A DNA stretch of 64,000 nt from Oscillospiraceae bacterium (lineage in GTDB: Bacteria; Bacillota; Clostridia; Oscillospirales; Oscillospiraceae), in NCBI GenBank assembly GCA_910575695.1, contig CAJTGJ010000013.1:1-64000 (forward strand), in the 5' to 3' direction. The translations under genes and the position numbers were made by a program. The notes below the pieces were generated by a model. It made no database searches. It had not been told where the DNA came from and was given only the letters and a program-made list of their open reading frames with translations. This document shows positions 14,841 through 35,742 of this stretch, in pieces; position 1 is the first letter of the stretch; each line of letters begins with the position of its first letter.

Positions 14841-14853
14841 ACGGAGGAAACCC

Positions 14854-16395
14854 ATGAAAAAACGAATTTTGTCCCTTCTGCCGCTGGCGCTGGTGCTGGC
14901 GGCATTGCTCTGCGCCCCGGCTTTTGCCCTAACCGAGAGCGAGGTGGAGGCCCAGGTGGCCGCGTCCAGCAAGGAAGCCGTCACCGGGAACGTGCTGATC
15001 TGGTTTTTCTGCGCTGTGGCCTTTTTGAAGGTGTCACAGAAAATCGACAGCATCCTGGGCACTCTGGGCATCAATGTGGGCCGCACCGGCGGTTCCCTGA
15101 TGGCCGAGGCCATGATCGCCGCCCGGGGCGTCACCATGATCGCCAAGGCGGGCGGCCACGCCATAGGCGGCGCGGTCCGGTCAGGGGGCGGCGCGGCCCA
15201 AGGCGCTCCCTCCGGCTCCACAGGCGGCTTCTTCAAGGGCGGACTCATCGGCATGGCCGGACGGCACATCACCAACAGCGCCGTGAAAACGGCCACCTCT
15301 CAGACCGCCAACCTCCATACCGCGCAAAGCCAGACCGCGACCTCCGCCATGCACACGGCCAGCTCCGCCCAGTCTGAGGGCGTCCACACGGCCAGTTCCG
15401 TCCACTCCGGCGTCTCCCATACCGTCAACGCGGTCCAGGGCAGCCGTTTCAGCACCGCCAGCTCCGGCACAGTCCACACAGACAGCAGTTTTCAGTCCGG
15501 CGGCGTGAACACCGACACCTCCGGCATCATCCAGACGGAAAACTCGGTGCAGTCCGCCGCCATGCAGTCGGACACCTCCGTTATCTCGGGGCAGGACAGC
15601 ACCAGCAGCGAGGCTTTTTCCGACAGCGCTGTTTTCGCGGATGCCATAGCCCAGCAGGAGGGCGTCATCATCACCGGGCACGAATCACAGTCCTCTGTCC
15701 ATTCGGACAGCAATTCCCAAACCTCCGGCCCCGGTGCTCCGTCCGCTCCCTCTGGCCCCAATAGCGCGCCCTCCGCTCCATCGGGCGGCAGCGCTCAGGT
15801 GTCTCAGTCGGCCAACAGCTCTCAGACCGTCTACGCTGGCGGTGGAAGCGAACGTGTCCATACCCAGTCCAGCGCCACGGAAACCGCCCACACTCAGTCC
15901 GACACCCATACGGTCCGCCAGACCAGCATCGGCGGCGCTGTATTTGCCCGGTCTCTGGCCTCCGGCGGCAAGTTCGCCAACGACGTAATCGGCACTGTGG
16001 CCCGGGGCGATATCCGCTCCACTGGCTCCATCACCGGGGACCTGGCTGCCCAGTCCCTCAGCTCCTACATGGGCCACACAGCCCTGGGGGCCGGGGCCAG
16101 GAACATCCCCCGGTATTCCGATGTGGAAATCGGCGGCGGGCGCATCACCGGCACGGAGTACAAGCCGGGCAGCAAAGAGGGGCTGGCCTTCGGAATGTAT
16201 CACGCGGGGCAGTATGCCGCTCCCGAAGGCCCCCATCAGAAGGTCCATTCCGCGGATGGGACACTGTGGTTCAAGCAGTACGCCCAGGACGCGGTGGAAC
16301 GCAAGCCCTACAAGGCCCCGGACGGCACTGTGGCCTACGAGGAAAAAATCGTGAAGAAGCTGCCCAACGCGCCCAAGCGGAAGGACCGCATTTAA
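14854..16395 (+). CDS. Exported repetitive Ser/Thr/Gln/His-rich T4SS-associated protein
   Basis: 513 residues, start after GGAGGAAACCC. Signal peptide to APAFA (about residue 26), then one hydrophobic segment (NVLIWFFCAVAFLKV). A Gly-rich part follows, then a low-complexity region of about 200 residues (150-370). That region is built from short units such as HTASS-QS, HTASSVHSG and NTDTSG. The C-terminal 100 residues are more ordered (DVEIGGGRITGTEYKPGSKE). No known domain. It sits between the VirB6-like and VirB4 genes with matched RBSs, so it is part of the transfer apparatus, perhaps a surface-exposed or flexible linker component. Confidence 0.75.
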   Translation: MKKRILSLLPLALVLAALLCAPAFALTESEVEAQVAASSKEAVTGNVLIWFFCAVAFLKVSQKIDSILGTLGINVGRTGGSLMAEAMIAARGVTMIAKAGGHAIGGAVRSGGGAAQGAPSGSTGGFFKGGLIGMAGRHITNSAVKTATSQTANLHTAQSQTATSAMHTASSAQSEGVHTASSVHSGVSHTVNAVQGSRFSTASSGTVHTDSSFQSGGVNTDTSGIIQTENSVQSAAMQSDTSVISGQDSTSSEAFSDSAVFADAIAQQEGVIITGHESQSSVHSDSNSQTSGPGAPSAPSGPNSAPSAPSGGSAQVSQSANSSQTVYAGGGSERVHTQSSATETAHTQSDTHTVRQTSIGGAVFARSLASGGKFANDVIGTVARGDIRSTGSITGDLAAQSLSSYMGHTALGAGARNIPRYSDVEIGGGRITGTEYKPGSKEGLAFGMYHAGQYAAPEGPHQKVHSADGTLWFKQYAQDAVERKPYKAPDGTVAYEEKIVKKLPNAPKRKDRI

Positions 16396-16406
16396 GGAGG
16401 AAACCC

Positions 16407-19313
16407 ATGCGACAAGAAGAACGGGATGTCTACGTCATCCCACCCAATTTTATCGAGGGCGGAAGCCTGATGGGCGGTATGTTCAAGACCTGGAACGCCA
16501 TTGAGGCCGGGATCTTGGGCGCGCTCACCGCCTTGCCTGTGCTCCGGCTCGGCTTTTCCCTCACCACCCGCATCATCATCCTGTGCGTCACCACCCTGCC
16601 CCTGGTGCTGGTGGCCCTCATCGGCATCGGCGGCGAGAGCCTGTCCCAATTCATCCTCCAGTTCATCAGCTATCTGCGCAACCGGCGCGTGCTGGACCAG
16701 ACCGGGACAGGCTCCAAGAAGGGGCTGCTCCCCAGCTGGGCGCAAAAGGAGCACACCGCCAATCCGGATGTGGAGGAACTGCCCAAAAGCCGCCGCCGGT
16801 TCCATGTGGATGTGAAAAAGCGGGAGGTCTCCCAGCACAAAACCTTCCTGGAGCGGGAGGAAGTGGTCAAGCCCCTGAATCCCCTGGCGGATTACGTGCC
16901 CATTGAGAAGATCACCCACGGCGTCATCAAGACCCGGGACCGCCGCTATATCAAGGTGGTGGAGGTGGTGCCCGTGAATTTCCTGCTGCGCAGCGCCCAG
17001 GAGCAGCGCAGCATCATCTATTCCTTCATCAGCTATCTCAAGATCGCGCCGGAGAAGGTGCAGTTCAAGGTGCTCACCAAGCGGGCGGACATCGACCGAC
17101 ACATGGAGAGCGTCCGGGAAGAGCTGGCGAGGGAAACGGACCCCCACTGCCGGATGCTCCAGGAAGACTATCTTCGGCTGATTCGGGACCTGGGCTCCAG
17201 GGAGGCCATCACCCGGCGCTTTTTCCTCATTTTTGAGCATGAACCGCTCCCCGGAACGAAACGGGGCCAGGAGGAGGACGAGGCCATTGCCTCCCTCCAG
17301 ACCGCCGCCCGCACCGCCGCCAATTACCTGCGCCAGTGCGGCAACATGGTGCTCATGCCGGAGGAACAGGATGAAGCGGTGGCCGAGATTCTTTACCATA
17401 TCCTCTGCCGCCGGGAAAGCAACGAGCACCCCTTCACCGACAAGGCCAAGCGGGTGGTGGCGGAATACCTGGCCTCCGGACGGGACGTGAACACCATCCC
17501 CGCCAACGAGTTCTACGCCCCCGGTGAGATCGACTTCACCCACGGACGCTACATCTGCATCGACGGCGTGTACTACGCTTATCTGCTGGTGCCCTCGGAC
17601 GGCTTCAAAACCCAGGTGCCCGCCGGGTGGCTGTCCCTGCTGGTGAACGCCGGGGACGGCATCGACCTGGACGTGTTCCTCACCCGCCAGCCCAAGGACC
17701 GCATGATCCGCAAGCTGGGCCAGCAGCTCCGCATCAACCGAAGCAAGATCCGGGAGACCAGCGACACCAACAGCGACTTCGATGACCTGGACGGGGCCAT
17801 CCGCAGCGGCTTCTTCCTGAAGGACGGCCTGGGAAACAACGAGGATTTCTACTACCTGAATCTCCTGGTCACGGTGACAGCGGGCAGCGTGGACGAGCTG
17901 GAGTGGAAGTGCGCCGAAATGAAAAAGCTGCTCCTGTCCCAGGACATGAACGTACAGCCCTGTTCCTTCTGTGAGGAGCAGGCTTTTCTGTCCTCCCTGC
18001 CCCTGGTTTCGCTGGAGAAACACCTCTTTGAGCGGTCCAAACGCAACGTCCTCACCCTGGGGGCGGCAAGCTGCTACCCCTACACCAGCTATGAGATGTG
18101 CGACGACAACGGCATTTTGCTGGGGGTGAACAAGCACAACAACTCCCTCATCATCGTGGATATCTTTGATTCCAACGTCTACAAAAACGCCAATATCGCC
18201 ATTCTGGGCACCAGCGGGGCGGGCAAGAGCTTCACCATGCAGCTCATGGCCACCCGCATGAGGCGTAAGGGTATCCAGGTGTTTATCGTGGCCCCGCTGA
18301 AAGGCCATGAGTTCCACCGGGCCTGCTCCAACATCGGCGGGGAGTTCATCCAGATATCCCCCGCCTCCCCCAACTGCATCAACGTCATGGAGATCCGCAG
18401 GGTGGACAAGTCCGTGGATGAGTTGCTGGACGGCCCTGGGGTGGAAAAATCCCTGCTGGCGGCGAAGATCCAGCGGCTGCACATCTTTTTCTCACTGCTG
18501 ATTCCCGACATGAGCCACGAGGAGCGGCAGCTTCTGGACGACGCCCTCATCCGCACCTACGCCAACCTGGGCATCACCCATGACAACGCCACCCTGGAGG
18601 ACCCGAAGCGGCCGGGGCAGTACCGCACCATGCCGGTGTTGGGCGACCTCTACGACACCTTGAAGGAAGTGCCGGACACCAAACGGCTGGCCAATATCAT
18701 CAACCGTCTGGTCCACGGCTCCGCCAAGACCTTTAACCAACAGACCAACGTGTCTCTGGACAACAAGTACACGGTGCTGGACATCTCCGAGCTGACGGGC
18801 GACCTGCTGACGGTGGGGATGTTCGTGGCCCTGGACTACGTTTGGGACAAGGCCAAGGAGAACCGCACCGAGGAAAAGGCCATCTTCATCGACGAGTGCT
18901 GGCAGCTCATCGGCGCCAACAGCAACCGTCTGGCGGCGGAGTTCGTGCTGGAGATTTTCAAAATCATCCGGGGCTACGGCGGCTCGGCCATCTGCGCCAC
19001 CCAGGATATCAACGACTTCTTTGCCCTGGAGGACGGCAAGTACGGGAAGGGCATCATCAACAACGCCAAGACCAAGATTTTGCTGAACCTGGAGGACGAG
19101 GAGGCCCGTCGGGTGCAATCCCTGCTCCATCTGTCTGAGGCCGAGGTCATGGAGATCACCCACTTTGAGCGGGGCAGCGGGCTTATTAGCACCAATAACA
19201 ATAATGTGACGGTGGAGATCAAATGCAGCCAGATGGAGAAGGAGCTGATCACTACCGACCGCCGGGAGCTTCAGGAGCTGCTGAACCGCGGCGGAGGCCG
19301 GAAGGCCGGGTGA
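16407..19313 (+). CDS. virB4: PrgI-VirB4 fusion: T4SS ATPase
   Basis: 968 residues from the ATG after AAGGAGGAAACCC. Residues about 1-95 carry two membrane helices in a PrgI/TcpE-like arrangement. The cytoplasmic VirB4/TraE domain follows, with Walker A GTSGAGKS at about residue 601 and Walker B FIDECW at about 825, and the late motif SAICATQDINDFF. VirB4 hydrolyses ATP to drive pilus or channel assembly and substrate transfer. In many Gram-positive ICEs PrgI is a separate gene before VirB4, so the fusion is notable. Very confident for the VirB4 part. Confidence 0.95.
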   Translation: MRQEERDVYVIPPNFIEGGSLMGGMFKTWNAIEAGILGALTALPVLRLGFSLTTRIIILCVTTLPLVLVALIGIGGESLSQFILQFISYLRNRRVLDQTGTGSKKGLLPSWAQKEHTANPDVEELPKSRRRFHVDVKKREVSQHKTFLEREEVVKPLNPLADYVPIEKITHGVIKTRDRRYIKVVEVVPVNFLLRSAQEQRSIIYSFISYLKIAPEKVQFKVLTKRADIDRHMESVREELARETDPHCRMLQEDYLRLIRDLGSREAITRRFFLIFEHEPLPGTKRGQEEDEAIASLQTAARTAANYLRQCGNMVLMPEEQDEAVAEILYHILCRRESNEHPFTDKAKRVVAEYLASGRDVNTIPANEFYAPGEIDFTHGRYICIDGVYYAYLLVPSDGFKTQVPAGWLSLLVNAGDGIDLDVFLTRQPKDRMIRKLGQQLRINRSKIRETSDTNSDFDDLDGAIRSGFFLKDGLGNNEDFYYLNLLVTVTAGSVDELEWKCAEMKKLLLSQDMNVQPCSFCEEQAFLSSLPLVSLEKHLFERSKRNVLTLGAASCYPYTSYEMCDDNGILLGVNKHNNSLIIVDIFDSNVYKNANIAILGTSGAGKSFTMQLMATRMRRKGIQVFIVAPLKGHEFHRACSNIGGEFIQISPASPNCINVMEIRRVDKSVDELLDGPGVEKSLLAAKIQRLHIFFSLLIPDMSHEERQLLDDALIRTYANLGITHDNATLEDPKRPGQYRTMPVLGDLYDTLKEVPDTKRLANIINRLVHGSAKTFNQQTNVSLDNKYTVLDISELTGDLLTVGMFVALDYVWDKAKENRTEEKAIFIDECWQLIGANSNRLAAEFVLEIFKIIRGYGGSAICATQDINDFFALEDGKYGKGIINNAKTKILLNLEDEEARRVQSLLHLSEAEVMEITHFERGSGLISTNNNNVTVEIKCSQMEKELITTDRRELQELLNRGGGRKAG

Positions 19314-20920: not shown

Positions 20921-22069
20921 ATGCGCTCAATGAAGAAAAGCAAAGAAAAAGTACATAGCCTGGACAGCTTCTCCACCCTGCTGCTGACCCTCATTGCCCT
21001 GTCCGGCGAGTTCCCTACTGAGCAGATCATACGTCTGCCGAGTACAGGCGCATATAAAGAGAAAGTCATCAAGTCGCTCAAAAATGACGGCCTCATCCGC
21101 ACTTACTACCATGATGGCCTGCGCGGTCTGCGGCTGACGGCTGCGGCTAAGAAACAGCTGGCCGCTGACTGGCCGGATCGGTTTGTCCCACTCTTTACCG
21201 GCGACACCATGACCAACGCACCCAAGTATACCGTCCTCCACCGTCTGCGCCTCCATCGTATGGCTGAGACGCTGGTGTCTATGCTCAACGCGGGCATATC
21301 GTCTTTCCCCTGGCAAAAGCCTGTCGTGTTTACTCCCACGCCGCTCGACCAGGCCCCGTACATTGAACGGCCCGCTTATTACAGCTCCCGCGAGCTCAAG
21401 CATCTGGGGGCGGCGGCAACAAAAATACGAAATTCCCGCGCTGTGGGCGTCTTGCTGACAGACGGCAATGTTTTCACCGTCTACAACACCGGACCTGCCC
21501 TGATGAAGTGGGAGTACCAGGCGGAAATGCGGCTCAAAGCCCTGCTGCAAATCGAACTGTGCCAAAACCGGCTCCCTAGACAGTTTGGAGGCGCCGGACA
21601 ATGTGCAATTTTATTTGGTTCTGATATGGAGCAGCTGCCGGCCCTGTTAGACGCCGACACCAGGACACAGCACCATTTCATTCAGGACGGGAGCTATGTC
21701 CGCTTCTATTTTCTCACCAACGACCACCATGGCGACGTCCTTCTGGAGCTGCTTTGCAGCCCGGATGAAAAAGCGGCACTGGACAGCACCCTTGCCCAAG
21801 GCCTCGACCCGCCCCGGCCCGGCTGGCCGGTGGTAAACGACGCCATGGACGGGGACAGCCCGGTGCTGTTTGGCTATACCTGTGATATGCCCCGGATCAA
21901 AAATTTTGACTACGCCCTGCACATCCAGCACAGAACGGGGCTGCTGTACTGCTTTGATTTCCAGGAGTCCGCCCTGCGGGAGCTGTGCGGGCCGAATGTG
22001 GAGATCCAGTGCATCGACTTTGAAGCCTACGAAAGGAGTGTGTTCCATCAACCGCAAGAAATTGATTAG
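20921..22069 (+). CDS. Unknown protein with N-terminal winged helix, upstream of virD4
   Basis: 382 residues from the ATG that follows GGAGGGGGTT; TTG 20891 is an alternative. Residues about 20-80 look like a winged helix (ALSGEFPTEQIIRLPSTGAY, KSLKNDGLIRTYYHDGLRGL). Replication-relaxation-type proteins and other ICE proteins begin this way. The rest is an alpha/beta region (VGVLLTDGNVFTVYNTGPAL) with no recognised fold. It overlaps the coupling protein gene, so it may help recruit DNA or the relaxosome to VirD4. Function not established. Confidence 0.7.
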   Translation: MRSMKKSKEKVHSLDSFSTLLLTLIALSGEFPTEQIIRLPSTGAYKEKVIKSLKNDGLIRTYYHDGLRGLRLTAAAKKQLAADWPDRFVPLFTGDTMTNAPKYTVLHRLRLHRMAETLVSMLNAGISSFPWQKPVVFTPTPLDQAPYIERPAYYSSRELKHLGAAATKIRNSRAVGVLLTDGNVFTVYNTGPALMKWEYQAEMRLKALLQIELCQNRLPRQFGGAGQCAILFGSDMEQLPALLDADTRTQHHFIQDGSYVRFYFLTNDHHGDVLLELLCSPDEKAALDSTLAQGLDPPRPGWPVVNDAMDGDSPVLFGYTCDMPRIKNFDYALHIQHRTGLLYCFDFQESALRELCGPNVEIQCIDFEAYERSVFHQPQEID

Positions 22070-23978
22070 CCTGCTGCTCATTCTGCCCATCGCCCTGGCC
22101 GCCCTGCTCTACGGCGGGGGCTTCATGGCTCAATTTATCTACAACTACGATGTCTGGCAGGCAGGAGGCGCGGCGTTCGGCACCGCGCCTCAATTTCCAA
22201 ATGCCAATTTCTTTGCCTGCATTGCCGCTGTGTTCCGCTGGCCCTCCGGGCTGTATGGCCTGGGGTTGTGCGTGGCCGCGCTGGCGGCGTTGACATTCGG
22301 CGTGTTGCACATGGGTCAGGGCGAGGGCGGGGAACTGGACAAGGCCCGCAACCTGATGTATTCGGATAAGGGCACCTATGGCACGGCGGGCTTTCTGTCC
22401 AAGCGGGAGATGAAGGACGTGCTGGACCTGGTGCCCAATATCCGCAAGCACCCTGGCATCATCCTGGGGGAGCTGGACGGCCAGGTGGTGTGCGTCCCCC
22501 TCAAGACTCGGTTCAACGGCAATCTGGCCGTCTATGGGGCCAGCGGCTCCAAGAAGACCCGGGCCTTCTGCGTCAACATGATTTTGCAGAGCGTGGCCCG
22601 GAAGTCCTCGCTGGTCATCTGTGATCCCAAGTCGGAGCTTTACGAAAAGACCAGCGAGTATCTGCGGGATCAGGGCTACACCGTGAAGGTGTTCAACCTG
22701 GTGACGCCCGCCGCCTCCGATTCCTGGAACTGCCTGTCAGAGATCGAGGGCCAGGAGCTGATGGCCCAGCTTTTTTGCGATGTGATCATTAAGAATACGG
22801 GCAGCGGTCGGGGAGACCATTTCTGGGACAATGCCGAACTGAACCTGCTGAAAGCTCTGGTACTCTATGTGGAGCAGGGCTATCCGGAGGGCAGGCGCAC
22901 CATCGGGGAGGTCTACCAGCTTCTGGCCATGAGCAGCGAAAAAGAGCTGAACGCCCTGTTCGACGTGCTCCCCATCTCCCACCCGGCCAAGGCCCCCTAC
23001 AGCATTTTCAAGCAGTCCTCGGAGAGCGTCCGGGGCGGCGTCATCATCGGTTTGGGCTCCCGGCTCCAGGTGTTTCAGAACCAGGATATCCGCAACATCA
23101 CCGGCTATGATGAGATCGACCTGGAGCTTCCCGGCAAACAGCCCTGCGCCTACTTCTGCATCACCAGCGACCAGGACAGCACCTTCGATTTCCTGTCCTC
23201 CCTGTTCCTGTCCTTCATCTTTATCAAGCTGGTGCGGTATGCCGACCAGAACTGTCCCGGCGGGGCGTTGCCTGTCCCAGTCCATGTGCTGGGGGAAGAA
23301 CTGTGCGCCTGCGGAGTTATCCCTGACCTTTCCCGAAAAATCAGCGTCATCCGCTCCCGAAACATCTCCATGTCCTGCGTGTTCCAAAATCTCGCCGGCC
23401 TCCAGAACCGCTATCCCGACAACCAATGGCAGGAAATCCTGGGCAACTGTGACATCACCCTGTTCCTGGGCTGCACCGACGCCCTCACGGCTACGTTCAT
23501 TTCAGACCGCACCGGGGAGGCCAGCATCGCCGTCACCAGCAAGGGCCGGCAGTTAAGTAGCTGGCAGGTGACCAACTACACCCCTTTGTACCGGGAGACC
23601 AGCGGCGTAGGCAAACGCAAGCTCATGACCATGGATGAGGTGCTGCGCATGGATGTGGACCGCGCCCTGGTGATCCTCCGGGGCAAAAAAGTATTGGAGG
23701 TAGACAAATATGACTATTCCAAGCATCCCGAGGCGAAAAAGCTCCGGGCAGGTAAGGCCTCCTCCCACGTTCCGGCGTGGCAGGAGGCGCAAAAGCAGAC
23801 GCGGGCCGCAGCAAAGAAGGAGGTGAAGCCGGCCCCAGCCCAGTCTGCCGCTGTGCCTAAAAAAGAACCGGCGTCTGAACCGGCTCCGGCGAAGCAGGCG
23901 GCGCATGAGGCCGCGCCGCGAGTAAAGAGCACAAGCAAGGATTCCATTATCAAGCCAAAACCGAAAAAGGAGGACTGA
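22038..23978 (+). CDS. virD4: VirD4/TraG coupling protein with altered Walker motifs
   Basis: About 646 residues. Two N-terminal membrane helices (about 9-35 and 72-92) precede a cytoplasmic TraG/VirD4 ATPase that docks the relaxosome to the channel. The P-loop reads GASGSKKT (about 167-174), with Lys in place of the usual Gly. The Walker B region reads HVLGEELCACG, with Glu where Asp is usual. The C-terminal 90 residues are a Lys/Ala/Pro-rich tail. The start is unclear: GTG 22038 is used here, but AAAGGAG lies only 1 bp from it. TTG 22062 is another option. The gene overlaps the end of the previous one. Confidence 0.88.
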   Translation: MCSINRKKLISLLLILPIALAALLYGGGFMAQFIYNYDVWQAGGAAFGTAPQFPNANFFACIAAVFRWPSGLYGLGLCVAALAALTFGVLHMGQGEGGELDKARNLMYSDKGTYGTAGFLSKREMKDVLDLVPNIRKHPGIILGELDGQVVCVPLKTRFNGNLAVYGASGSKKTRAFCVNMILQSVARKSSLVICDPKSELYEKTSEYLRDQGYTVKVFNLVTPAASDSWNCLSEIEGQELMAQLFCDVIIKNTGSGRGDHFWDNAELNLLKALVLYVEQGYPEGRRTIGEVYQLLAMSSEKELNALFDVLPISHPAKAPYSIFKQSSESVRGGVIIGLGSRLQVFQNQDIRNITGYDEIDLELPGKQPCAYFCITSDQDSTFDFLSSLFLSFIFIKLVRYADQNCPGGALPVPVHVLGEELCACGVIPDLSRKISVIRSRNISMSCVFQNLAGLQNRYPDNQWQEILGNCDITLFLGCTDALTATFISDRTGEASIAVTSKGRQLSSWQVTNYTPLYRETSGVGKRKLMTMDEVLRMDVDRALVILRGKKVLEVDKYDYSKHPEAKKLRAGKASSHVPAWQEAQKQTRAAAKKEVKPAPAQSAAVPKKEPASEPAPAKQAAHEAAPRVKSTSKDSIIKPKPKKED

Positions 23979-25511: not shown

Positions 25512-26669
25512 ATGAAGCTGAAGTACATCAAACGCATGGCGCTGTGTCTGGCGCTGACGCTGGCCCTCAGCGTCAGCGCCTTTGCCTCCGCTGTGCCGGA
25601 AAATCTGGTGGTGGAGAACCTGAACGGCCAGCAGCGCATCACCAAGACCTATGTGCTCCCGCCCGACACCGACCCGGAGATCTTGAAAGAGCCGTCGTTT
25701 GATTACGACGGCTTTACCTATACCTGGGCCTTCACCACCAAGGAGGAGCACACCTTTCTGGAGTCCAAAACCGCCACCCAAACAGTGACGGTGGAGACGG
25801 CCAAGAAGGACCTCAATACCATCCTGGAGCAGCTGGCCCCCACGCTTCCCTATGACGATGGAGAGTACACGGGTGAGCTGGCCCTGGACCACACCACCCT
25901 GTCCACCGTGGCGTCGGGCTACACCACCCAGCGGGGCTCCATCACCGCCACCAAGACCATCGGCCCCCTGGACCGCAACGATATGTCCTACATCCCGGCC
26001 ACCACCACGAAGAACGGCCGCACCCTCTCCCTGGTCAACGTGGATTGGCAGGTCATCGGCTCCGATGTGGTGGGGGATATGATGGCCCCCTGCTCCTATC
26101 AGGCGGTCGCCACCTATTCCGCCGCTACCAGCAGCCAGGTCGCCACAGGCTATGTCACCACCGCCGAGTACAAGGGCGAGGTGGTGGCGGAGGGCGTGGA
26201 AAACATCACCTATACGGTGGTCTATGTGGGCAGCGAGATCGTCCCGGCGGAACCCGATCCCACTGAGCCTGTCGAGCGGGCCTATCCGTCCTTCTTCCTG
26301 CCCATGGCCGTCATCGGCGGCGTCCTGCTCCTGGCGGCATTGGCGGCGCTGGGCGTGTTCGGCGTCCGCCTGTTCCGGCACAGGAAGAACGTCTATGTGT
26401 ACGTCCCCGGCGACAGTCCCCGGGACTACAAGCTGATCGCCAAGTTCCGGGCGGAGCCGGACAGGCCGGAGGTCGATATTCGGAACATGACCCCCTACCC
26501 CAATACCACCATTGCGGTGGAGATCAAGCGGCCCCTGGCAAAGCAGCTGGTGGGCCAGACCTTCACCGTCCACCACCGCACTGCGGACTACACCTATACC
26601 GTCCTCCGGGACAGCCCGGCGGATTGGCACGAGTTTGACCCCACAGAGGAAAAGGAGGATGCCATTTGA
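25512..26669 (+). CDS. Exported single-pass membrane protein of the T4SS region
   Basis: 385 residues, RBS AAAAGGAG. Signal peptide ending SAFAS (about residue 27), an extracellular beta-rich Thr-rich domain to about residue 255, a transmembrane helix (FFLPMAVIGGVLLLAALAAL), and a cytoplasmic domain of about 100 residues. The cytoplasmic part has PYPNTTIAVEIKRPLAKQLV, which recalls the anti-sigma or signalling-type tail of some surface sensors. No named domain. Its stop overlaps the sortase start by 4 bp, so the two are coupled. It could be a receptor-like scaffold for the sortase module. Confidence 0.75.
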   Translation: MKLKYIKRMALCLALTLALSVSAFASAVPENLVVENLNGQQRITKTYVLPPDTDPEILKEPSFDYDGFTYTWAFTTKEEHTFLESKTATQTVTVETAKKDLNTILEQLAPTLPYDDGEYTGELALDHTTLSTVASGYTTQRGSITATKTIGPLDRNDMSYIPATTTKNGRTLSLVNVDWQVIGSDVVGDMMAPCSYQAVATYSAATSSQVATGYVTTAEYKGEVVAEGVENITYTVVYVGSEIVPAEPDPTEPVERAYPSFFLPMAVIGGVLLLAALAALGVFGVRLFRHRKNVYVYVPGDSPRDYKLIAKFRAEPDRPEVDIRNMTPYPNTTIAVEIKRPLAKQLVGQTFTVHHRTADYTYTVLRDSPADWHEFDPTEEKEDAI

Positions 26670-27517
26670 AACACATCGGAAAAATCGCGGGCCTGGCGCT
26701 GTCCGCCGTGATGGCGCTGACCATGACCGCCCCGGCCTTTGCGTCGGATTACAGCTTTACCACCACGGCCCTCCAGGATTACTACAACAGCACCAGCTAT
26801 GAGGACGTCTACGGCTCCCAGTACAACTATGGCGGGCGCAACGTGGTGGACTACGACATCCCCGAGCTGGAGTACGGCCGCATGAGTACCACCATGACCG
26901 GCGTGATGGAGCGGACCATCCTGCCAGGGCTCCAGCAGGTCGTGGCATCCACGGACGGCTCCGGCTACGGCCTGGGCGGCGAGAACGGCGGCGGTGGCGG
27001 CCCCCTCACGGAACTGGTGCTGGATGACGGCACGGGCGCGGGTTCCGGCTCCACGGTGCCGGTGATCCCCGACACCCCGCAGATCACGGTCCCCAACTCC
27101 CCCGCCTACACCAGCGTCCAGGGCATGGCCTACAAGGACGGCAGCATCGGCACGCTGAAGATCGCCAAACTGGGCATCAGCGTGAAGGTCTGGGAGGGTG
27201 AGTCCACCACCAGCATGGCCAAGGGTGTGGGCCACTACAGCTCCACCTCTGCCTGGGATGGCAATGTCGGTTTGGCTGGGCACAACCGGGGGGCCAAGTA
27301 CAACATCGGCACCATCAAAAATCTGGTGGCCGGCGACACCATCACCTACACCACCATGTATGGCACCCGTACCTATCAGGTGACGTCGGTGAAAACCATC
27401 ACCAACACCGACTGGAGCTATCTCCAGGGCACCGCCGACAACCGCATCACCATCACCACCTGCCTGGAGAACCATCCGGAGAGCCGGGTCTGCGTCCAGG
27501 CTGTGGAGGTGAAGTGA
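26666..27517 (+). CDS. Sortase (class D-like transpeptidase)
   Basis: 283 residues from TTG after AAAAGGAGG. N-terminal signal peptide (APAFA about residue 26), Gly-rich linker, then a sortase domain (about 150-283). Catalytic residues are visible: His206 in GLAGHNRG, Cys266 in ITITTC and Arg274 in ESRVCV. Sortases cleave LPxTG-type signals and attach proteins to the cell wall. The natural substrate here is the giant protein at 28428-35696 that ends in LPKTGY. Anchoring seems to be by signal peptide rather than a retained helix, unless cleavage fails. High confidence for family. Confidence 0.92.
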   Translation: MKHIGKIAGLALSAVMALTMTAPAFASDYSFTTTALQDYYNSTSYEDVYGSQYNYGGRNVVDYDIPELEYGRMSTTMTGVMERTILPGLQQVVASTDGSGYGLGGENGGGGGPLTELVLDDGTGAGSGSTVPVIPDTPQITVPNSPAYTSVQGMAYKDGSIGTLKIAKLGISVKVWEGESTTSMAKGVGHYSSTSAWDGNVGLAGHNRGAKYNIGTIKNLVAGDTITYTTMYGTRTYQVTSVKTITNTDWSYLQGTADNRITITTCLENHPESRVCVQAVEVK

Positions 27518-27561
27518 CCAAGCCCCAGGAAAAAAATTTTTGCCGGGGGCCTCCCAATTTG

Positions 27562-27590
27562 TTGAAAACCGCATTCTCCGTTTGTATAAG
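27562..27590 (+). promoter_or_regulatory. Promoter of the cysteine peptidase gene
   Basis: TTGAAA (27562-27567), 17 bp, TATAAG (27585-27590), 50 bp before the ATG at 27641 with RBS AAAGGAGG. Confidence 0.6.
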
Positions 27591-27640
27591 GAAGTATACC
27601 GGCCTCTCTGGGACCGGAACAATACAAAGGAGGTCTTTTT

Positions 27641-28354
27641 ATGCGGCAAAGGATGTTTACCCTCTTGGCAGGGATGGCCCTGGGCATGGTCCTGCTCAGC
27701 GGTGGCTACGCCGCCAGTACTGCCCTCACCGCCACCGTCAGCAACCAGCCCATCTATGTAGACGGCCAGCGGGTATACCTCACCGCCTATCATATCGGCG
27801 GGAACAACTTCGTGAAGCTCCGAGACATCGGACAGGCCGTGGGCTTCAATGTCTATTGGGACGGGACGGTGCAAATCGAGAGCGATAAGCCCTATACCGG
27901 GGTCATCCCCTCCAGTCAGACGCCTGTACCCACCCAGCTGATCCCAACCGTCCCCACCGAAGCCAGTGCGCAGGCAGCCATCAAGGCTCTGCGGGACACC
28001 TATCCCCACGGAACGGCTTACCCCACGCCCTACCGGCCCAACAATCCTCTCTCCAGGCCCTATACCAACTGCGACCACTGTGCCGGCTGGGCCATGCTGT
28101 GCAGCGATGCGGCCTTTGGCGATTTACCCTGGCGGTATCAGACCGCCCCGGCCTGGAGCGATATCCGGGCGGGGGACCTGGTTCGGTACGACAATTCCTA
28201 TGGCGGCCATGTTGTGGTCGTGGTGGACAAGACGGACGAATACATCCTCGTCACCGAGAGCGGCGCCAACAATAAGGTCCGCTGGAGTGGACAGTATTTC
28301 AAGTGGTGGCTGGAGGAACAGCCCGGCTATGCCCGTTGGACACGGTATCCCTAA
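27641..28354 (+). CDS. Exported cysteine peptidase with stalk domain
   Basis: 237 residues. Signal peptide to about residue 25. Then a copper-amine-oxidase N-terminal-like stalk domain (NFVKLRDIGQAVGFNVYWDG, about 55-75), which usually mediates surface interactions rather than catalysis. A Pro/Thr linker and a C-terminal NlpC/CHAP-type cysteine peptidase domain follow (about 140-237: CDHCAGWAML with the likely nucleophile Cys, and GGHVVVVVDK with the His). Probably cleaves peptidoglycan to open the wall for the T4SS or to expose sorting sites. Lies between sortase and its putative substrate. Confidence 0.82.
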   Translation: MRQRMFTLLAGMALGMVLLSGGYAASTALTATVSNQPIYVDGQRVYLTAYHIGGNNFVKLRDIGQAVGFNVYWDGTVQIESDKPYTGVIPSSQTPVPTQLIPTVPTEASAQAAIKALRDTYPHGTAYPTPYRPNNPLSRPYTNCDHCAGWAMLCSDAAFGDLPWRYQTAPAWSDIRAGDLVRYDNSYGGHVVVVVDKTDEYILVTESGANNKVRWSGQYFKWWLEEQPGYARWTRYP

Positions 28355-28372
28355 TTTAATCATCTGACATCG

Positions 28373-28404
28373 AAAGGCCAGACTGTACCCACAGTCTGGC
28401 CTTT
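28373..28404. terminator. Perfect 14-bp hairpin before the giant surface protein gene
   Basis: AAAGGCCAGACTGT (28373-28386) and ACAGTCTGGCCTTT (28391-28404) with a 4-nt loop and only TTT on the 3' side. A partial terminator or processing site that may set lower expression of the adhesin. Confidence 0.6.
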
Positions 28405-28427
28405 CCTCGTACAAGGAGGACGATATT

Positions 28428-31400
28428 TTGAAGCACAAATTCTTTCAGCGCGCCTTGGCCATGCTTTTGGCCCTGGTGTGCGTCATGGGCATTCTGCCCT
28501 TGTCCGCATTTGCCGCCGGGGGAAGCGCCCCCAGTTCCATCACCCAGCGGTCCTCCGCCTACATGACCATCGGCGGGCGGTCCGTCCGCTATAAGGCGGC
28601 CAGCAGCACCATCAACAACGTGGGCCTGCCATATGTGTTCAACGAGCAGGTGGACGTACCCGGTTACGGAACGACCCGCGCCCTGTGCGCCTACCAGCAC
28701 GGCACCTTGGGTCCCGCAGCCAACGGCCAGAAGTGGAACTTCAAGAGCGAGGTCAACAGCGCCTCCCTGAAGGTGCTGCTGACCTATATCTATTCCTACA
28801 CCTATGGGGACTTTGAGGCCGCGGGCGACGCCGTCGGTCTGGAGCACTGGAACCAGTATTGGTCCAACATCTGGTTCCTTGTGGCGCAGGCCATGTCCTG
28901 GTACTACGAGCACGGTATCATCAAAGATGTGACCAGCGACCGGGAGGGCTTCATTGAGCAGGCCAGCGAGGAGTTCGTTGCGGCCATGCGGCTCTACCAT
29001 CAGACCTACGGCCAGTCCAGCTGGATCACCAACTGGGACGCCATCGGCACCCATTCCATCATAGACAGCACCGATGGCGGGGCCACCGGCGTTTCCGCCT
29101 ACGATTACGTCTCCACCGGCGTCAATCTGGTGCTGGATCATCCCGAATACTTCCACGATTACCACCTGTGGATCTATGAGTGGGACAGTACGCAGCCCTG
29201 GAAGCTGACGGGCCAGTCCGGCACTCCCATGCAGCGGCTGCTCATTGCCGTGCCGGAGGAACGGACAGAAGAGGAGGACACTGTTCAGCTGACAGTAAAA
29301 AAGCTGGAAGCCGGTACAAATAAGCCTCTTCCCGGCGTCACCTTCAAAGTCGAGAATTCCGCTGACCCTGCCGCATTCTCTGTCACGCGGCAGACCGGCT
29401 CCGATGGAACGTTTACCCTCACTGCTGAGGCAGACCATCTCACAGCCGGCCAGTATCTCATCACCGAAGAGGCCGCGCCCGAGGGCTATGTGGCCCAGAC
29501 TGCCTCCCAGTTGGTGACAGTCCTGCCCAACGGCTCCGCCAACAGTGTGTTCACTTTCTTTAATGAGCCGACCACGACAACGACTACTCCCGGCACCGGC
29601 TCCATTCGCAAGGTAAACGCGGACAACCCCACTGAGGGCATTCCCGGCGCGGTTATCCGCATCACTTCGGTCAAGCTGGATGATGGCGGCAGCTTTGTCA
29701 GCGAGTACACCACCAAGGACGGCGGCTATATTTTGAAGGAGGATCTGGATTTCTCCCAGCTCCCCACCGGAAGCTATATCGCCGAGGAGATCACTCCGCC
29801 GGAGGGGTTCATCCTGAGCTCTGATGTGTCCAAGGTCAAGCAGCCCTTTGTGTGGGACGGCGAGCACGACATCAGCCTGATTTTTGAAAACAGCGCGAAA
29901 GTTCGTGTGCAGCTGAAGAAGGTGGACGAGAGCAACGCCCCCCTTCCCGGGGCTGTTTTTGTTATCCTGCGGGACGGCCAGGTGATCGGCACCGAGGAAA
30001 CTCAGCCCGACGGCACCATCACCGTGTCCAACGTCAGCGAGGGGTACTATGAGTTCCGTGAGGTAAGTGCCCCGTCTGGCTTCGACTGCGACCGCTCCCC
30101 CGTGGGCGTCCATGTGGAGGCCAAGGACCTTCAGGGTGAACAGACCATCGTGGTCACCAAAATGAACCATCACAAGCGTTCCCTGACCATCACCAAGCGG
30201 AACACCGAGACCGGCGACCCCGTTCCCGGCACCTCTTTCCATATCCGGGGTGTGAACCTGGGCTATGAAAACGACGTGGTGACGGGCGCCGACGGCAAGG
30301 TGACCATCTCCGATATGCCTTCCGGCTGCTACGAAATCGAAGAGACAGACGTACCCGCGCCCTATATCCTGGACACCAACAACCGTAAGACCGTCTGGAT
30401 CGACGCCGAAAAGGACCAGGATGTGGTGGTTGATTTTGTCAACTCCACCCGGCCCGGCCTGCGGCTGCTGAAAATTGACGCTCAGACCGGCGAGCCTCTT
30501 TCCCAGGTCCAGTTCCGCATCAGAGAGGTCAACGGCGGCTATAACGAGCTGCACTTCACCAACGCCGAGGGCCTGATCGTGCTGGAAGGGCTGAACCCCG
30601 GGGCCTATACCGTGCAAGAAACGAAGCCCAAGAATGGCTGGGTGGCGGATGATACCGTCCACACCGTCTACCTGGAGGAGAATAAGACCACCACCCTTGA
30701 ACTGAAAAACCTGCGCAAGCCGGATCTGTATGTCAAGAAGGTGGACAGCATCACGGGCAGCCCCATCAAGGGCGTTAAATTCCAAATCTGGCGCGGGTCT
30801 GACGACACCCAGAGCGGCGAGTATAACGACCTGGGCACCTTCTACACTGATGAGCAGGGCCAGATCCATCTGGTTCGGGTCAATACCGGGTGGTACAAGA
30901 TCCAGGAGCTGGAACCCGCCCCCGGCTACACCATCAAAGAACCGGCTATCCAGGAGATTTATATGGAGGCCGGAAAGGACCACACCGTCACCTTTGAGAA
31001 CACCCCCAAGAACGCGATAGTGGTCGAGAAGTATGATTCCGTCACTCATCAGGCCCTGCCCGGGTGTACCTTCCAGCTGAGGTATCTGGGCGGCGCATCC
31101 GGCACAGGCGGCACCGTCATCGGCCAGAAGGTGACGGGGAACAACGGCATCGCCATGTGGACCGGGTTGAATCCCGGGTCCTATATCGTGGAAGAGGTCG
31201 ATCCAGCGGACGGATATAACATCATAAATGCCTCTGAAACCGTATTCTTGGCCGATGATGGTGAGCAGAGCGTGGTCACTGTCCGGTTCAACAATTCCCC
31301 TAACGGCTCCCTCCTGATCCGGAAGGTGTGCGCCACAAATCCCTCTGTCACCCTCCAGAACGCCGAGTTCAAAGTGACCTATGCGGACGGCACCCTCATC

Positions 31401-34400
31401 GGCGATAGCAACGGCATTTTCAGGTCCGACGAAAACGGCGAGGTGCTGATTGACGACCTGAAGCCGGGCTCCAGCGTGGTGGTCACCGAGGTGCGGGCCC
31501 CTGCGGGTTTCCTCATCGACACCCAGAGCGTCACCGTTCAGATCAAGGAAGGCCGCACCATGTCCGTGGTCATGAAAAACCAGCCCAAAGGAAAACTGAT
31601 TATTCAGAAGCGGGACAGCCAGACCAACGAGGTCCTGCCCGGCGCTGAGTTCCGGGTCACCACCGCCGCCGGCTGCGAGGTTGGTCTGGACGGCGTGATT
31701 GGCACTTCCTCCCTGACCCAGAACGGCATTTTCACCACCGACAGCCAGGGCGAGATCCGCATTTCCAACCTCGTCCCCGGCGCATATGTCATCAATGAAA
31801 TCAAAGCCCCGGGCGGCGGGTATGTCATTGACACCCCCTCCACCAACGTGGTCATCGGGCAGGGCGGCGACACCCAGACAGTGGTGATTAAAAACACCAA
31901 GAAGGGTCAGTTGATCGTCGAGAAGTACGATAAGATCACGAAGCAGCCCCTGGCCGGTGCGCAGTTCAAAATCATGACGGCCAATGGGGAGCTCACCCCC
32001 GACAATGAGGGGCTCACCAGCTCCAACGGCCTCTATACCACCGACCAGAACGGCCAAATTGTGTTGTCCAAGCTCCTGCCCAACACCTATGTGGTTTCTG
32101 AGGAACGTGCCCCGGACAATTACCGCAAGGACCCCACCCCGCAGACGGTCGTAGTCAATGCCGGGGACACGCAGACGGTTCGCTTTTATGACGACCCCCT
32201 CTGTACCCTCACCATTTTGAAGCGGGATGCCGTCACCAAGAAGCCCCTGAAGGGCGCTGAGTTCCTGGTCCGGGACAGCTCCGGCCATGTGATTGGTCCC
32301 AACAATGGCCTCTACACCACCGGCACCGACGGCACCGTGACCGTCACCGGGTTGGCCCCCAATTCCACGGTGGTGGTGTCTGAGAAACGGGCTCCCACAG
32401 GCTACATCCTCGATGAGACTCCCAAAAACATCGTGGTGCGCTCCGGCGTGGCCAACAGCCTGATTTTTGATAACGAGCCTGGAACCACCCTCATAATCCG
32501 GAAATTCGTCGAGGGCACCGAGAACGAGCCCCTGTCTGGCGTGGCCTTTAAGGTCGTGGACGGCGCTGGGGCGGCGGTTGGTCCCGGCGATGGCGTCTAT
32601 TATACTGATAAGGCGGGCGAAATCGTCCTGGAGGGCATCGAGCCCGGCACAACAGTGAAGGTGCGCGAAATCAAGACCGTGGAGGGCTATGTCCTCGATG
32701 GCACCCCCCAGGACATCAAAATCAAGGGCGGCGAGGTGCAACAGCTCACATTTTGGAACAAAAAGGCGGGCACACTGGTCATCGAGAAAAAGGATTCTGT
32801 GTCCGGGGCATTCATTTCCGGCGCCCAGTTCCAATTGACGTATGCCAATGGCGGCTACGTTGACAATATCAATGGTCATTTGTCCTCCAACGGCCTGTAT
32901 ACCACAAACGATAAGGGCCAGATCCGCATTGAGGGCATCGTGGGCACCGTGGTCGCCAAGGAGGTCAAGGCAGCCCCCGGCTATGTGATCGACCAGTCCA
33001 CTCAGGTACAGACTGTCACAGTCAACCCCCTGGACACGCAGACACTCACCTTCCTCAACGAGCCCCTGTGCTCCCTCACCATCACGAAACTGGATTCCGT
33101 CACCGGGAAGCCCGTGCCCAACACTTCCTTCGCGGTGAAGGACGGCAACGGGAACGTGCTGGCCCGCTGCACCACCGGGCAGGATGGCACTGCCACTGTC
33201 ACCGGCCTCGTGCCCAACAGCACCGTGGTCGTGGTGGAGACCAAAGTACCCTCGGGCTATGTGCTCAACACCACGCCCCAGACCATCATCGTGAAAAACG
33301 GCTCCAACACCCTCACCGGCAGCTCCGGCACCGTGACCACCCCAGGTACGAATCCTGGCGGCAGCACTGTCGTCAATCCGGGCAGCAATACCGGCACCAG
33401 CAATGGCAACGACCTCACCTTTGAGAACGAGCCCAAGCAGACCTTGACCATTCACAAGTACATCGAGGGCACGAAAAACGAGCCTTTGGCCGGTGTGACC
33501 TTCAAACTGGTGGACGGCTCCGGCACTCCTGTGGGCTCCAGCGACGGCACCTTTATCACCGACAGCAAGGGAGAGATCGTGGTGGAGGGCCTGGAGCCCG
33601 GAACCACTATCACCGCCCAGGAGGTCAAGACCGTGGACGGTTTTGTGCTCGACGGCACCCCGAAATCTGTGAAGATCAAGGCAGGCCAAGGCGCTCCCTC
33701 CCTCACCTTCTGGAACGCCAGGGCGGGCGAACTCATTATCCGCAAGCTGGACAAGGCCACCGGGAAGCCCCTCGCCGGGGTGGAATTTGAGCTGACCTAC
33801 GCGGGCGGCGGCTACGTCGATAACGCGGACGGCCATTTGAGCAGCAACGGCCTGTATACCACCGACGCCCATGGGGAAATTCACATCTCTGGCGTGACCG
33901 GGACCATCGTGGTAAAGGAGACTCGGACCATCGACGGGTACACCATCGACCCCGCCACTCAGACGCAGACGGTAAAGGTCAACCCCCAGGATACGCAAAC
34001 GCTGACCTTCTACAACGCCCCCAAGCAGACTTTGACCATCCAGAAGTATGTGGACGGCACCACCGACCCCATCCAGGGCGTGACCTTCCTTGTCACCGAC
34101 AGCTCCGGGCAGGTGCTGGGTCCCAACAACGGCGAGTATATCACCGACCGTAATGGCCGCATTGTAATCACCGACCTGACCCCCGGAACCACCATCACAG
34201 CCAAGGAGACCAAGACCGTTGGCGGCTATGTGCTGGATACCACGCCCCAGTCCATCCTCATCAAGAGCGGCGTGGCTCAGACCCTGACCTTCTTCAACAA
34301 GGCCGAGGGCGGGCTGGAGCTGATCAAGGTGTCCGCCAGCGACAAATCCCAGCGCATCCCCAACGTGACCTTTGAGATCCGGGAGATGGACGGCGGGCTG

Positions 34401-35696
34401 GTGGATACCATCACTACCGATTCCAGCGGCCGGGTCCATCTGAACCTGGACGCCGGGGATTACTACGCTGTCGAGACTGAGGCCGGAGAGGGCTTCAAGA
34501 TCGACACCACGCCCCACTACTTCACCATCAAGGACGGCAAGACCACAACCCTCACCGTGACCAACGAGGCATTCAGCGGCATCATCATTCACAAGGTCAA
34601 TTCCGTCACCAAGGACGGGATTTATGGAGTGAAATTCCTGGTTTACGACCAGAATAAGAACCCCATCGGCGAGTACACCACCGATGACCAGGGCTACATC
34701 TACATCGACGACCTCACCGTGAAGGGGAAGGGCAAGCTGTTCATCCGCGAGTTGGAGGCCGCCGAGGGCTACGAGCTGGACAAGCAGTACAAGACCGTCT
34801 ACGTCCAGCCGGGCAAGACCATTGAGATCGAATGGGAGAACGTGCCCATCACCGGGCAGTTCCAGATCCGCAAGTACGCCGCTGAGTACAACGAGGTCAC
34901 CGGCACCGCCGCTGGCGCTCCCCTGAAGGGCGCGGTCTATGAGATCAGCGAGGCCCGCAGCGGGAAAGTGGTGGATTATATCACCACCGACGCCCGGGGC
35001 GTGGCGGCATCTAAGCCCCTACCCCTGGGCCGCTACAAGATCACTGAGGTGACCGCTCCTCCCTACTGGAAGCTCAGCGGCACCGTGTTTGATGAGACGC
35101 TGGAATATTCCGGCCAGATCATTAAGCTGTCCGACTACGACAAGCCCTCCAACCTGGGCGTCACCATCACCAAGCGGGGCAACGCTCAGGCCCTGGCGGG
35201 CAGCCAGATGCGCTACGACATCACCGTGGCGAACACCAGTAATGTGGCGCTCTCCGAATTCTACTGGCATGACCGCATCCCCACCGGCGCCACCCGGGCC
35301 ACTGTTCTGACCACCGGCACCTATAGCGCCCGGCTCAACTACCGTGTGCTGTACAAGACCAACTACCGGAACGGCTATCAGGTGCTGGCGTCCAACCTGC
35401 TCACCAGCAGTAACTACTCCTTCAGCCTCAACGCCATCCCCACCCAGCCGGGCGAGTACGTTACCGACGTTTACTTCGACTTTGGCAAGGTCCCCGTGGG
35501 ATTCCAGTCCACCACCAATCCGACCCTGACGGTCCAGGTACTGGGCTCCATCGCCAACAACTATCAGATTGTCAACCGGGCCGACGTGGGCGGCAAGTAC
35601 CAGGGCACCTGGCAGACCGCCCAGGCCACCTGGCTCACCATTGTGCGCAAGCTGACGCCCACCTACACCCCCACCCTGCCCAAAACGGGCTACTGA
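28428..35696 (+). CDS. Giant surface protein: thioester domain plus about 20 Cna-B repeats, ends LPKTGY
   Basis: 2422 residues from TTG after AAGGAGG. Signal peptide to AFAA (about 30). A thioester-type head follows, with Cys87 (ALCAYQ) and Gln154 (VAQAMSW), the pair that forms an internal thioester in TQxA-domain adhesins. I count about 20 SpaA/Cna-B repeats from residue 290 to about 2220. Each starts with a hydrophobic-K-K/R-x-D-type strand and contains a late E-xx-AP-GY motif, consistent with Lys-Asn isopeptide bonds. A C-terminal domain resembling a DUF11/isopeptide fold follows. The protein ends LPKTGY with no membrane helix or basic tail. Likely the surface adhesin of the ICE mating apparatus. 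Confidence 0.93.
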   Translation: MKHKFFQRALAMLLALVCVMGILPLSAFAAGGSAPSSITQRSSAYMTIGGRSVRYKAASSTINNVGLPYVFNEQVDVPGYGTTRALCAYQHGTLGPAANGQKWNFKSEVNSASLKVLLTYIYSYTYGDFEAAGDAVGLEHWNQYWSNIWFLVAQAMSWYYEHGIIKDVTSDREGFIEQASEEFVAAMRLYHQTYGQSSWITNWDAIGTHSIIDSTDGGATGVSAYDYVSTGVNLVLDHPEYFHDYHLWIYEWDSTQPWKLTGQSGTPMQRLLIAVPEERTEEEDTVQLTVKKLEAGTNKPLPGVTFKVENSADPAAFSVTRQTGSDGTFTLTAEADHLTAGQYLITEEAAPEGYVAQTASQLVTVLPNGSANSVFTFFNEPTTTTTTPGTGSIRKVNADNPTEGIPGAVIRITSVKLDDGGSFVSEYTTKDGGYILKEDLDFSQLPTGSYIAEEITPPEGFILSSDVSKVKQPFVWDGEHDISLIFENSAKVRVQLKKVDESNAPLPGAVFVILRDGQVIGTEETQPDGTITVSNVSEGYYEFREVSAPSGFDCDRSPVGVHVEAKDLQGEQTIVVTKMNHHKRSLTITKRNTETGDPVPGTSFHIRGVNLGYENDVVTGADGKVTISDMPSGCYEIEETDVPAPYILDTNNRKTVWIDAEKDQDVVVDFVNSTRPGLRLLKIDAQTGEPLSQVQFRIREVNGGYNELHFTNAEGLIVLEGLNPGAYTVQETKPKNGWVADDTVHTVYLEENKTTTLELKNLRKPDLYVKKVDSITGSPIKGVKFQIWRGSDDTQSGEYNDLGTFYTDEQGQIHLVRVNTGWYKIQELEPAPGYTIKEPAIQEIYMEAGKDHTVTFENTPKNAIVVEKYDSVTHQALPGCTFQLRYLGGASGTGGTVIGQKVTGNNGIAMWTGLNPGSYIVEEVDPADGYNIINASETVFLADDGEQSVVTVRFNNSPNGSLLIRKVCATNPSVTLQNAEFKVTYADGTLIGDSNGIFRSDENGEVLIDDLKPGSSVVVTEVRAPAGFLIDTQSVTVQIKEGRTMSVVMKNQPKGKLIIQKRDSQTNEVLPGAEFRVTTAAGCEVGLDGVIGTSSLTQNGIFTTDSQGEIRISNLVPGAYVINEIKAPGGGYVIDTPSTNVVIGQGGDTQTVVIKNTKKGQLIVEKYDKITKQPLAGAQFKIMTANGELTPDNEGLTSSNGLYTTDQNGQIVLSKLLPNTYVVSEERAPDNYRKDPTPQTVVVNAGDTQTVRFYDDPLCTLTILKRDAVTKKPLKGAEFLVRDSSGHVIGPNNGLYTTGTDGTVTVTGLAPNSTVVVSEKRAPTGYILDETPKNIVVRSGVANSLIFDNEPGTTLIIRKFVEGTENEPLSGVAFKVVDGAGAAVGPGDGVYYTDKAGEIVLEGIEPGTTVKVREIKTVEGYVLDGTPQDIKIKGGEVQQLTFWNKKAGTLVIEKKDSVSGAFISGAQFQLTYANGGYVDNINGHLSSNGLYTTNDKGQIRIEGIVGTVVAKEVKAAPGYVIDQSTQVQTVTVNPLDTQTLTFLNEPLCSLTITKLDSVTGKPVPNTSFAVKDGNGNVLARCTTGQDGTATVTGLVPNSTVVVVETKVPSGYVLNTTPQTIIVKNGSNTLTGSSGTVTTPGTNPGGSTVVNPGSNTGTSNGNDLTFENEPKQTLTIHKYIEGTKNEPLAGVTFKLVDGSGTPVGSSDGTFITDSKGEIVVEGLEPGTTITAQEVKTVDGFVLDGTPKSVKIKAGQGAPSLTFWNARAGELIIRKLDKATGKPLAGVEFELTYAGGGYVDNADGHLSSNGLYTTDAHGEIHISGVTGTIVVKETRTIDGYTIDPATQTQTVKVNPQDTQTLTFYNAPKQTLTIQKYVDGTTDPIQGVTFLVTDSSGQVLGPNNGEYITDRNGRIVITDLTPGTTITAKETKTVGGYVLDTTPQSILIKSGVAQTLTFFNKAEGGLELIKVSASDKSQRIPNVTFEIREMDGGLVDTITTDSSGRVHLNLDAGDYYAVETEAGEGFKIDTTPHYFTIKDGKTTTLTVTNEAFSGIIIHKVNSVTKDGIYGVKFLVYDQNKNPIGEYTTDDQGYIYIDDLTVKGKGKLFIRELEAAEGYELDKQYKTVYVQPGKTIEIEWENVPITGQFQIRKYAAEYNEVTGTAAGAPLKGAVYEISEARSGKVVDYITTDARGVAASKPLPLGRYKITEVTAPPYWKLSGTVFDETLEYSGQIIKLSDYDKPSNLGVTITKRGNAQALAGSQMRYDITVANTSNVALSEFYWHDRIPTGATRATVLTTGTYSARLNYRVLYKTNYRNGYQVLASNLLTSSNYSFSLNAIPTQPGEYVTDVYFDFGKVPVGFQSTTNPTLTVQVLGSIANNYQIVNRADVGGKYQGTWQTAQATWLTIVRKLTPTYTPTLPKTGY

Positions 35697-35704
35697 TTCA
35701 AAAA

Positions 35705-35732
35705 GCGGGACGGCTCCTCGGGGCCGTCCCGC
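35705..35732. terminator. Hairpin after the giant protein gene
   Basis: GCGGGACGGC (35705-35714) and GCCGTCCCGC (35723-35732); no clear U-run. It separates the plus-strand T4SS block from the minus-strand island. Confidence 0.6.
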
Positions 35733-35742
35733 TGGTAGCAGG

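Follow-up and report, generated by a model that had tools for sequence, protein, structure and literature searches.

The PrgB aggregation substance and its relatives of pCF10 are large surface adhesins that are encoded with a conjugation system and help transfer; they carry a classical sorting signal and use a host sortase. Adhesins of conjugative elements are known sortase substrates (PMC5569036; this and the other published reports are cited from excerpts), and the conjugative transposon 023_CTn2 of Clostridioides difficile has its own sortase along with two nearby I/TPKTG proteins (PMC6814731). We describe here a sortase-adhesin module in a 64,000-nucleotide stretch of the genome of an Oscillospiraceae bacterium (GenBank assembly GCA_910575695.1, contig CAJTGJ010000013.1, positions 1 to 64,000 of the forward strand), the whole of which is termed the window. 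Its giant adhesin closes with LPKTGY-stop, and an ending of this tail-less kind, conserved across many species, looks like a working, so far unrecognised way of attaching surface proteins.

With classical LPXTG sorting (Staphylococcus aureus SrtA; C. difficile SrtB/CD3392 of CTn7) the module has in common the sortase fold, the catalytic residues and an exported adhesin that carries an LPxTG-like pentapeptide close to its C-terminus. It differs in having no hydrophobic stretch or charged tail, in close sortases that look exported and in a separate, co-encoded membrane partner. TIEpLS20 (p34) of the conjugative plasmid pLS20, a thioester-type adhesin with a Cna-like stalk, is likewise encoded with conjugation genes and lacks a classical sorting signal, but it is without an LPXTG motif or a sortase gene of its own and functions without the host sortases (PMC8092201), whereas the adhesin described here has an LPxTG-X end (X being its last residue) and a dedicated sortase. 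Sortase-assembled pilins of the SpaH/EbpB type are alike in their repeated SpaA domains, on which the pilin model NF033902 matches our adhesin at 202 bits (cut-off 95), and unlike in that the adhesin is without a tail, its sortase scores too low for the class C model (46 bits against 160) and we noticed no series of pilin genes next to it. Within open-access PubMed Central, which does not cover the subscription literature, LPKTGY was absent, LPRTGY occurred only in one unrelated paper, on insect receptors, and the searches made there turned up no description of a tail-less LPXTG family or of a naturally secreted sortase.

The reading we favour, and hold to be somewhat probable, is that of a self-contained sortase system that does not depend on a tail and belongs to an integrative conjugative element; it would anchor a fully exported adhesin through its LPxTG-X end with docking on the membrane partner. 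Its sequence-level support consists of the tail-less end and its conservation, a signal-peptide pattern and intact catalytic residues in the sortase, the operon, gene fusions, co-occurrence and neighbouring conjugation genes.

A tail-less sorting motif closes a family of giant adhesins

The module comprises the following features.

25512..26669, + strand: membrane partner protein, 385 aa (open reading frame (ORF); signal peptide, ectodomain, one transmembrane (TM) helix, cytoplasmic tail)
26666..27517, + strand: sortase, 283 aa (PF04203, E 5.5e-20; signal-peptide-like N-terminus, no other membrane segment)
27641..28354, + strand: variable third gene, for a secreted protein that may be a cysteine hydrolase (sub-threshold Pfam matches)
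28428..35696, + strand: giant adhesin, 2,422 aa, TTG start (ORF; about 20 SpaA domains, SpaA matching in 20 stretches)
35124..35657, + strand: conserved domain that directly precedes the sorting motif at the C-terminus (alignment and profile searches; sub-threshold DUF11 only)
35676..35696, + strand: tail-less sorting motif LPKTGY-stop (ORF end ...YTPTLPKTGY-TGA)
35704..35733, - strand: GC-rich hairpin with its T-run on the minus strand, terminator for a convergent gene

The end of the adhesin is as the earlier note on this DNA had described it: the 2,422-residue ORF closes with LPKTGY-stop, without a hydrophobic helix or basic tail. The same ending recurs within the genome, where 10 matches to the adhesin C-terminal domain (three on contig C4 and one each on C10, C11, C13, C14, C15, C45 and C51) all end in LP[KR]TGY-stop. 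Pooled loci yielded 88 distinct complete adhesin ends, comprising 84 strong (E below 1e-30) and 4 weak matches, after 11 domain matches were dropped for a contig end or an early stop of the match. Among the strong ends, 83/84 consist of LPxTG and a single further residue (Y in 72, F in 5, C in 3, W in 2 and M in 1), and in 84/84 an LPxTG-like pentapeptide lies near the C-terminus while the hydrophobic stretch and basic tail are absent. When the window's own genome (7) and the loci fetched by motif (9 of the 88) are left out, 68 strong ends remain, and 67 of them have the single-residue form. A truncation in this strain only, which the earlier note had offered as a way in which the observation might fall, is excluded by the ten copies and the 83/84 strong homologues, and the latter also rule out truncation or assembly artefact in general. 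A chance motif can likewise be dismissed: as a DNA pattern, LPKTG[YF]-stop gave 14 matches in 5/295 genomes of the order, and its reversed control gave 0 among the matches listed.

Conservation is concentrated on the motif itself. We compared 27 diverged lineages (domains less than 70% identical, median 43%), obtained by dereplicating 80 of the 83 ends with one residue after the motif. The information content is 4.1-4.3 bits at L, P, T and G, 2.9 at x and 2.8 at the last residue, and only 1.0-1.9 at the 12 linker positions before the motif. The 83 ends use 65 nucleotide spellings of the motif. Searches by tblastn, with 14 C-terminal domains chosen from adhesins known to end LP[KR]TGY and shortened by their last 12 residues as queries, reached the domain end at 60 places (duplicate loci included), and 60/60 continue directly into LP[KR]TG[YF]-stop; 34 of these places come from loci fetched by sortase similarity alone. 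The domain preceding the motif shows 22 invariant columns in an alignment of 19 sequences, has no PDB relative by sequence at E up to 1 and only sub-threshold DUF11 matches; its profile matched in 10/398 genomes of the phylum and 14/391 of the class.

It is conceivable, but very improbable, that the adhesin is merely released and that its motif is the relic of a lost classical signal. The four weak or remote homologues (L168, L170, L171, L172) do carry a hydrophobic helix and basic tail, and a protein without the signal classically goes to the medium (PMC5569036). A relic would decay, yet among the final 18 residues the six of the motif show the strongest conservation across the 27 lineages, and the adhesin end stays associated with its sortase across genomes. 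The classical signal also occurs in the window's own genome, where another sortase (L061, contig C35) adjoins a protein in which IPQTG is followed by a hydrophobic helix and then a basic tail.

We give hardly any credence to the notion that read-through or frameshifting supplies a tail, or that sequencing missed one. Read-through frames were hydrophobic somewhere in 13/83 cases, against 7.8% of background frames, but within 10 residues of the stop such a stretch occurred in 2/83 only, most of the other hydrophobic frames resemble, by eye, the start of the next gene, 22/332 shifted frames were hydrophobic, and all three stop codons are used after the motif. In favour of read-through stands L232 (genome G045), where the in-frame stretch after LPRTGY-TGA encodes a hydrophobic helix and basic end like a classical tail. 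This stretch, of a kind seen in 1/83 ends, can be opened at its own ATG, and it may be a tail split off from the adhesin or else a small membrane protein with no relation to it.

Association of the adhesin end with a dedicated sortase

The sortase that the earlier note had placed just upstream of the adhesin, 26666-27517, matches PF04203 (71.8 bits, cut-off 26.6). The general sortase model TIGR01076 of NCBIfam is passed at 51.3 bits (cut-off 39.35), and no named class is reached among the NCBIfam models: C, D and E attain at best 46-58 bits against cut-offs of 140-165, and GN 32 against 158. A PDB sequence search with this protein returned only other sortases (51 sequences, best E 3.1e-19).

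Presence of the sortase and presence of the adhesin end coincide to a marked extent. The C-terminal domain of the adhesin is carried by 18/22 genomes with a close family sortase, versus 1/60 (G214) of the genomes of the order without any sortase match (Fisher p 2.2e-13), the 60 having been taken in list order from 203 rather than drawn at random, and about 70 genomes with weak sortase matches only having been left out of both groups. Outside the order, 13 genomes showed a strong adhesin end, and a family sortase was found in 12 of them, with E no higher than 2.1e-40; in the 8 genomes with weak domain matches only, the best E of the family sortase search was 9.5e-18.

An alignment of 51 close family sortases retains the catalytic His and Cys in 51/51 and the Arg in 50/51. 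In all 51, too, a short hydrophobic core is followed by an AxA-type pattern, as compared with 2/14 other sortases from the fetched loci that served as controls, and in 49/51 the pattern lies, by a stricter placement, just before an invariant Tyr. No later segment reaches TM strength in these close relatives, the highest 19-residue average being 1.51. On account of the AxA pattern and the want of a later TM-strength segment, they look exported rather than membrane-anchored.

The intact catalytic residues bear on a further alternative, namely that the C-terminal domain and LPxTG-X end form a docking handle by which sortase and partner would hold the adhesin uncleaved. Such non-covalent capture would suit the conservation of a folded domain beside the motif (the 22 invariant columns) and its linkage to the partner-sortase pair. 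It would leave unexplained both the preserved catalytic site and the residue after Gly, which fits what sortase chemistry demands of a substrate (PMC9126251), and we consider it quite unlikely.

A co-encoded membrane partner

Immediately upstream of the sortase lies the gene for a membrane protein. In the window the end of this gene and the start of the sortase gene share 4 bases (25512-26669 / 26666-27517), which is also the commonest spacing of the two genes (33/73 loci measured). This partner has no Pfam or NCBIfam match over cut-off and no PDB relative by sequence at E up to 1. Its profile nevertheless matches directly upstream of 120/137 family sortase ORFs, duplicate loci included. The remaining 17 are made up of 5 contig edges, 3 loci in which the partner is present and the sortase start mis-extended (L036, L088, L144), 2 fusions, 2 without call (L136, L143) and 5, from three distinct loci, with a TM-anchored sortase and no partner. 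In the fusions, L204 and L122, partner and sortase occupy one reading frame; L122 carries a broken-looking adhesin. At L206, L209 and L256 no partner match was found near the sortase, which has an anchor of its own; at L205 and L207 partner and sortase anchor are both present. That sortases without a partner carry their own anchor suggests that the partner may be the membrane platform of the sortase.

A special case of the favoured reading would make a lysine of this protein the acceptor, so that the partner would supply a membrane anchor to the adhesin in trans. Besides the constant position of the partner gene, the candidate residue K45 of the window protein speaks for it, being Lys in 43 of 48 aligned partners (Arg 3, Asp 1, gap 1). 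The three Arg mean that no partner lysine is strictly invariant, and in the genomes of the three loci without a partner near the sortase the adhesins are tail-less too; we regard the lysine acceptor as unlikely.

A proposed mechanism for sorting without a tail

From these observations we infer a course of events that runs from signal-peptide cleavage and docking through catalysis on the LPxTG-X end and transfer to an acceptor to a role in mating. Sec would export the adhesin completely, since it has nothing able to stop it in the membrane. The sortase, itself exported by means of its signal peptide, would be retained by the membrane protein of the preceding gene, and the folded C-terminal domain with its exposed LPxTG-X end would be captured by the sortase at the cell surface. 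Cleavage between Thr and Gly would free Gly-Tyr and join the adhesin to an envelope amine, either of a peptidoglycan stem peptide or of the partner lysine, after which the giant adhesin would grip partner cells for mating. In the simplest version, it would be the membrane partner together with the conserved C-terminal domain, instead of a tail, that keeps the adhesin near the sortase.

Published work on the reaction is compatible with such a scheme. Sortases need LPX1TGX2, in which X2 is a residue or amide, and a Gly with free acid is no substrate (PMC9126251); the single conserved residue after Gly is therefore the minimum that sortase chemistry asks for. Externally added LPETG-amide, which has no tail at all, is incorporated by S. 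aureus in a SrtA-dependent manner, and the authors of that study held the tail to be essential only for proteins exported from the cytoplasm (PMC3929722). The core idea of the earlier note, a sortase acting on a tail-less C-terminal motif, gains support, at the level of sequence, from family-wide conservation, linkage and co-occurrence with the dedicated enzyme.

Several points weigh against the favoured reading. The sole exception among the strong ends, L237 (genome G266), has LPQTG followed by 24 hydrophilic residues without a TM segment. Four of the 22 sortase genomes (G139, G146, G046, G245) have no adhesin end, G214 has an adhesin end without a sortase match, and G713, outside the order, has a strong adhesin end and no family sortase. 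When CD3392 of C. difficile is deprived of its whole sorting signal, it is released (PMC5569036). The call of signal-peptide cleavage in the sortases comes from a simple AxA pattern rather than a trained predictor. Moreover, the trait does not depend on secretion of the sortase: distant relatives at L205, L206, L209 and their duplicates, not in the 51-sortase alignment, have an ordinary TM anchor, and their adhesins are tail-less too (LPRTGC, LPKTGM, LPKTGC). Tail-lessness is accordingly the more basic trait of the two.

A bolder version, which remains tentative and in our view rather doubtful, has both sortase and adhesin fully exported and meeting in or outside the wall, with joining in trans to surfaces that may include those of neighbouring or recipient cells. 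A conjugative element would then covalently dress cell surfaces for mating, and LPxTG-X with its adjoining folded domain would amount to a second class of sorting signal, independent of a tail and distributed across Clostridia.

A conserved tail-less signal with a sortase of its own would break the rule that a membrane-holding tail is needed; membrane retention of a sortase substrate would be dispensable in nature, and substrate searches that require a tail would miss a class of gut adhesins on conjugative elements. The old question whether the tail is part of the sortase substrate or a mere means of proximity to the enzyme becomes directly testable, and the small natural sortases found here may suit protein labelling.

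The N-terminal part of the adhesin

Pfam TED (PF08341) was found in 4/6 family adhesin N-termini tested, though not in that of the window's own adhesin, in which a Cys is nevertheless seen in a similar place. A PDB sequence search with this N-terminal part gave one weak match (E 0.0018). By its sequence the adhesin appears to resemble thioester-domain adhesins, one of which is needed for efficient conjugation of pLS20 with no sortase involved (PMC8092201), and by analogy a mating role is plausible.

Mobile-element context and neighbouring genes

The module is an operon in one direction, in the order membrane protein, sortase, variable hydrolase-like protein and, last, adhesin. Upstream of it are encoded proteins with DUF5697 and DUF6100 and the following three:

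9148..10473, + strand: serine recombinase of a mobile element (Recombinase E 1.5e-16, DUF4368 E 9.5e-22)
16266..19313, + strand: TraG/VirB4-type conjugation ATPase (P-loop_TraG E 1.1e-21)
21870..23978, + strand: type IV coupling protein (T4SS-DNA_transf E 2e-43)

These genes together place the module in a conjugative element. A coupling-protein match (PF02534) shares a contig with 7/10 adhesin copies of the same genome (three on C4, and those on C10, C13, C14 and C15), at about 35 kb or less from each copy by our own reading of the coordinates. With five query proteins, conjugation genes were found near the module in 23/80 loci, and in 19/35 of the loci of at least 15 kb; the other 16 of these longer loci showed none, for which short flanks and the small number of queries may account. 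Carriage by plasmids or phages was considered and set aside, as the C-terminal region of L119 had no tblastn match in plasmid and phage collections at E 1e-5. One carrier of the module is available in culture, Flintibacter muris DSM 110149 (L087).

Two details of the earlier description hold in part. A strong hairpin does follow the adhesin stop (-29.9 kcal/mol, z -4.65), and one terminator-like site was found there (0.2 expected in shuffles), but its T-run lies on the minus strand, so that it serves the convergent gene 35743-36273 and not the adhesin. The gene at 27641-28354, taken for a cysteine peptidase, is present upstream as stated; its Pfam matches are all sub-threshold (Cu_amine_oxidN1 E 0.0015, Amidase_6 E 0.033), and the peptidase assignment is weakly supported. 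Across the copies compared (the window, L051, L054, L056, L059, L203 and L210) this third slot is filled by unrelated enzymes, variously CAP, transglutaminase-like or amidase-like.

Downstream of the adhesin, the product of 37550-38986 is a membrane protein in which a peptidase domain of the C39 type was recognised (Peptidase_C39_2, E 1.1e-18); it may also belong to the conjugative element. Elsewhere in the genome, at L057 (contig C15, about 8942-15437), the adhesin is split over two separate ORFs about 6.5 kb apart and looks interrupted. With 28 PF02534 matches, some of them fragments, and 12 sortase matches, this genome (G000) bears an unusually heavy load of conjugative elements.

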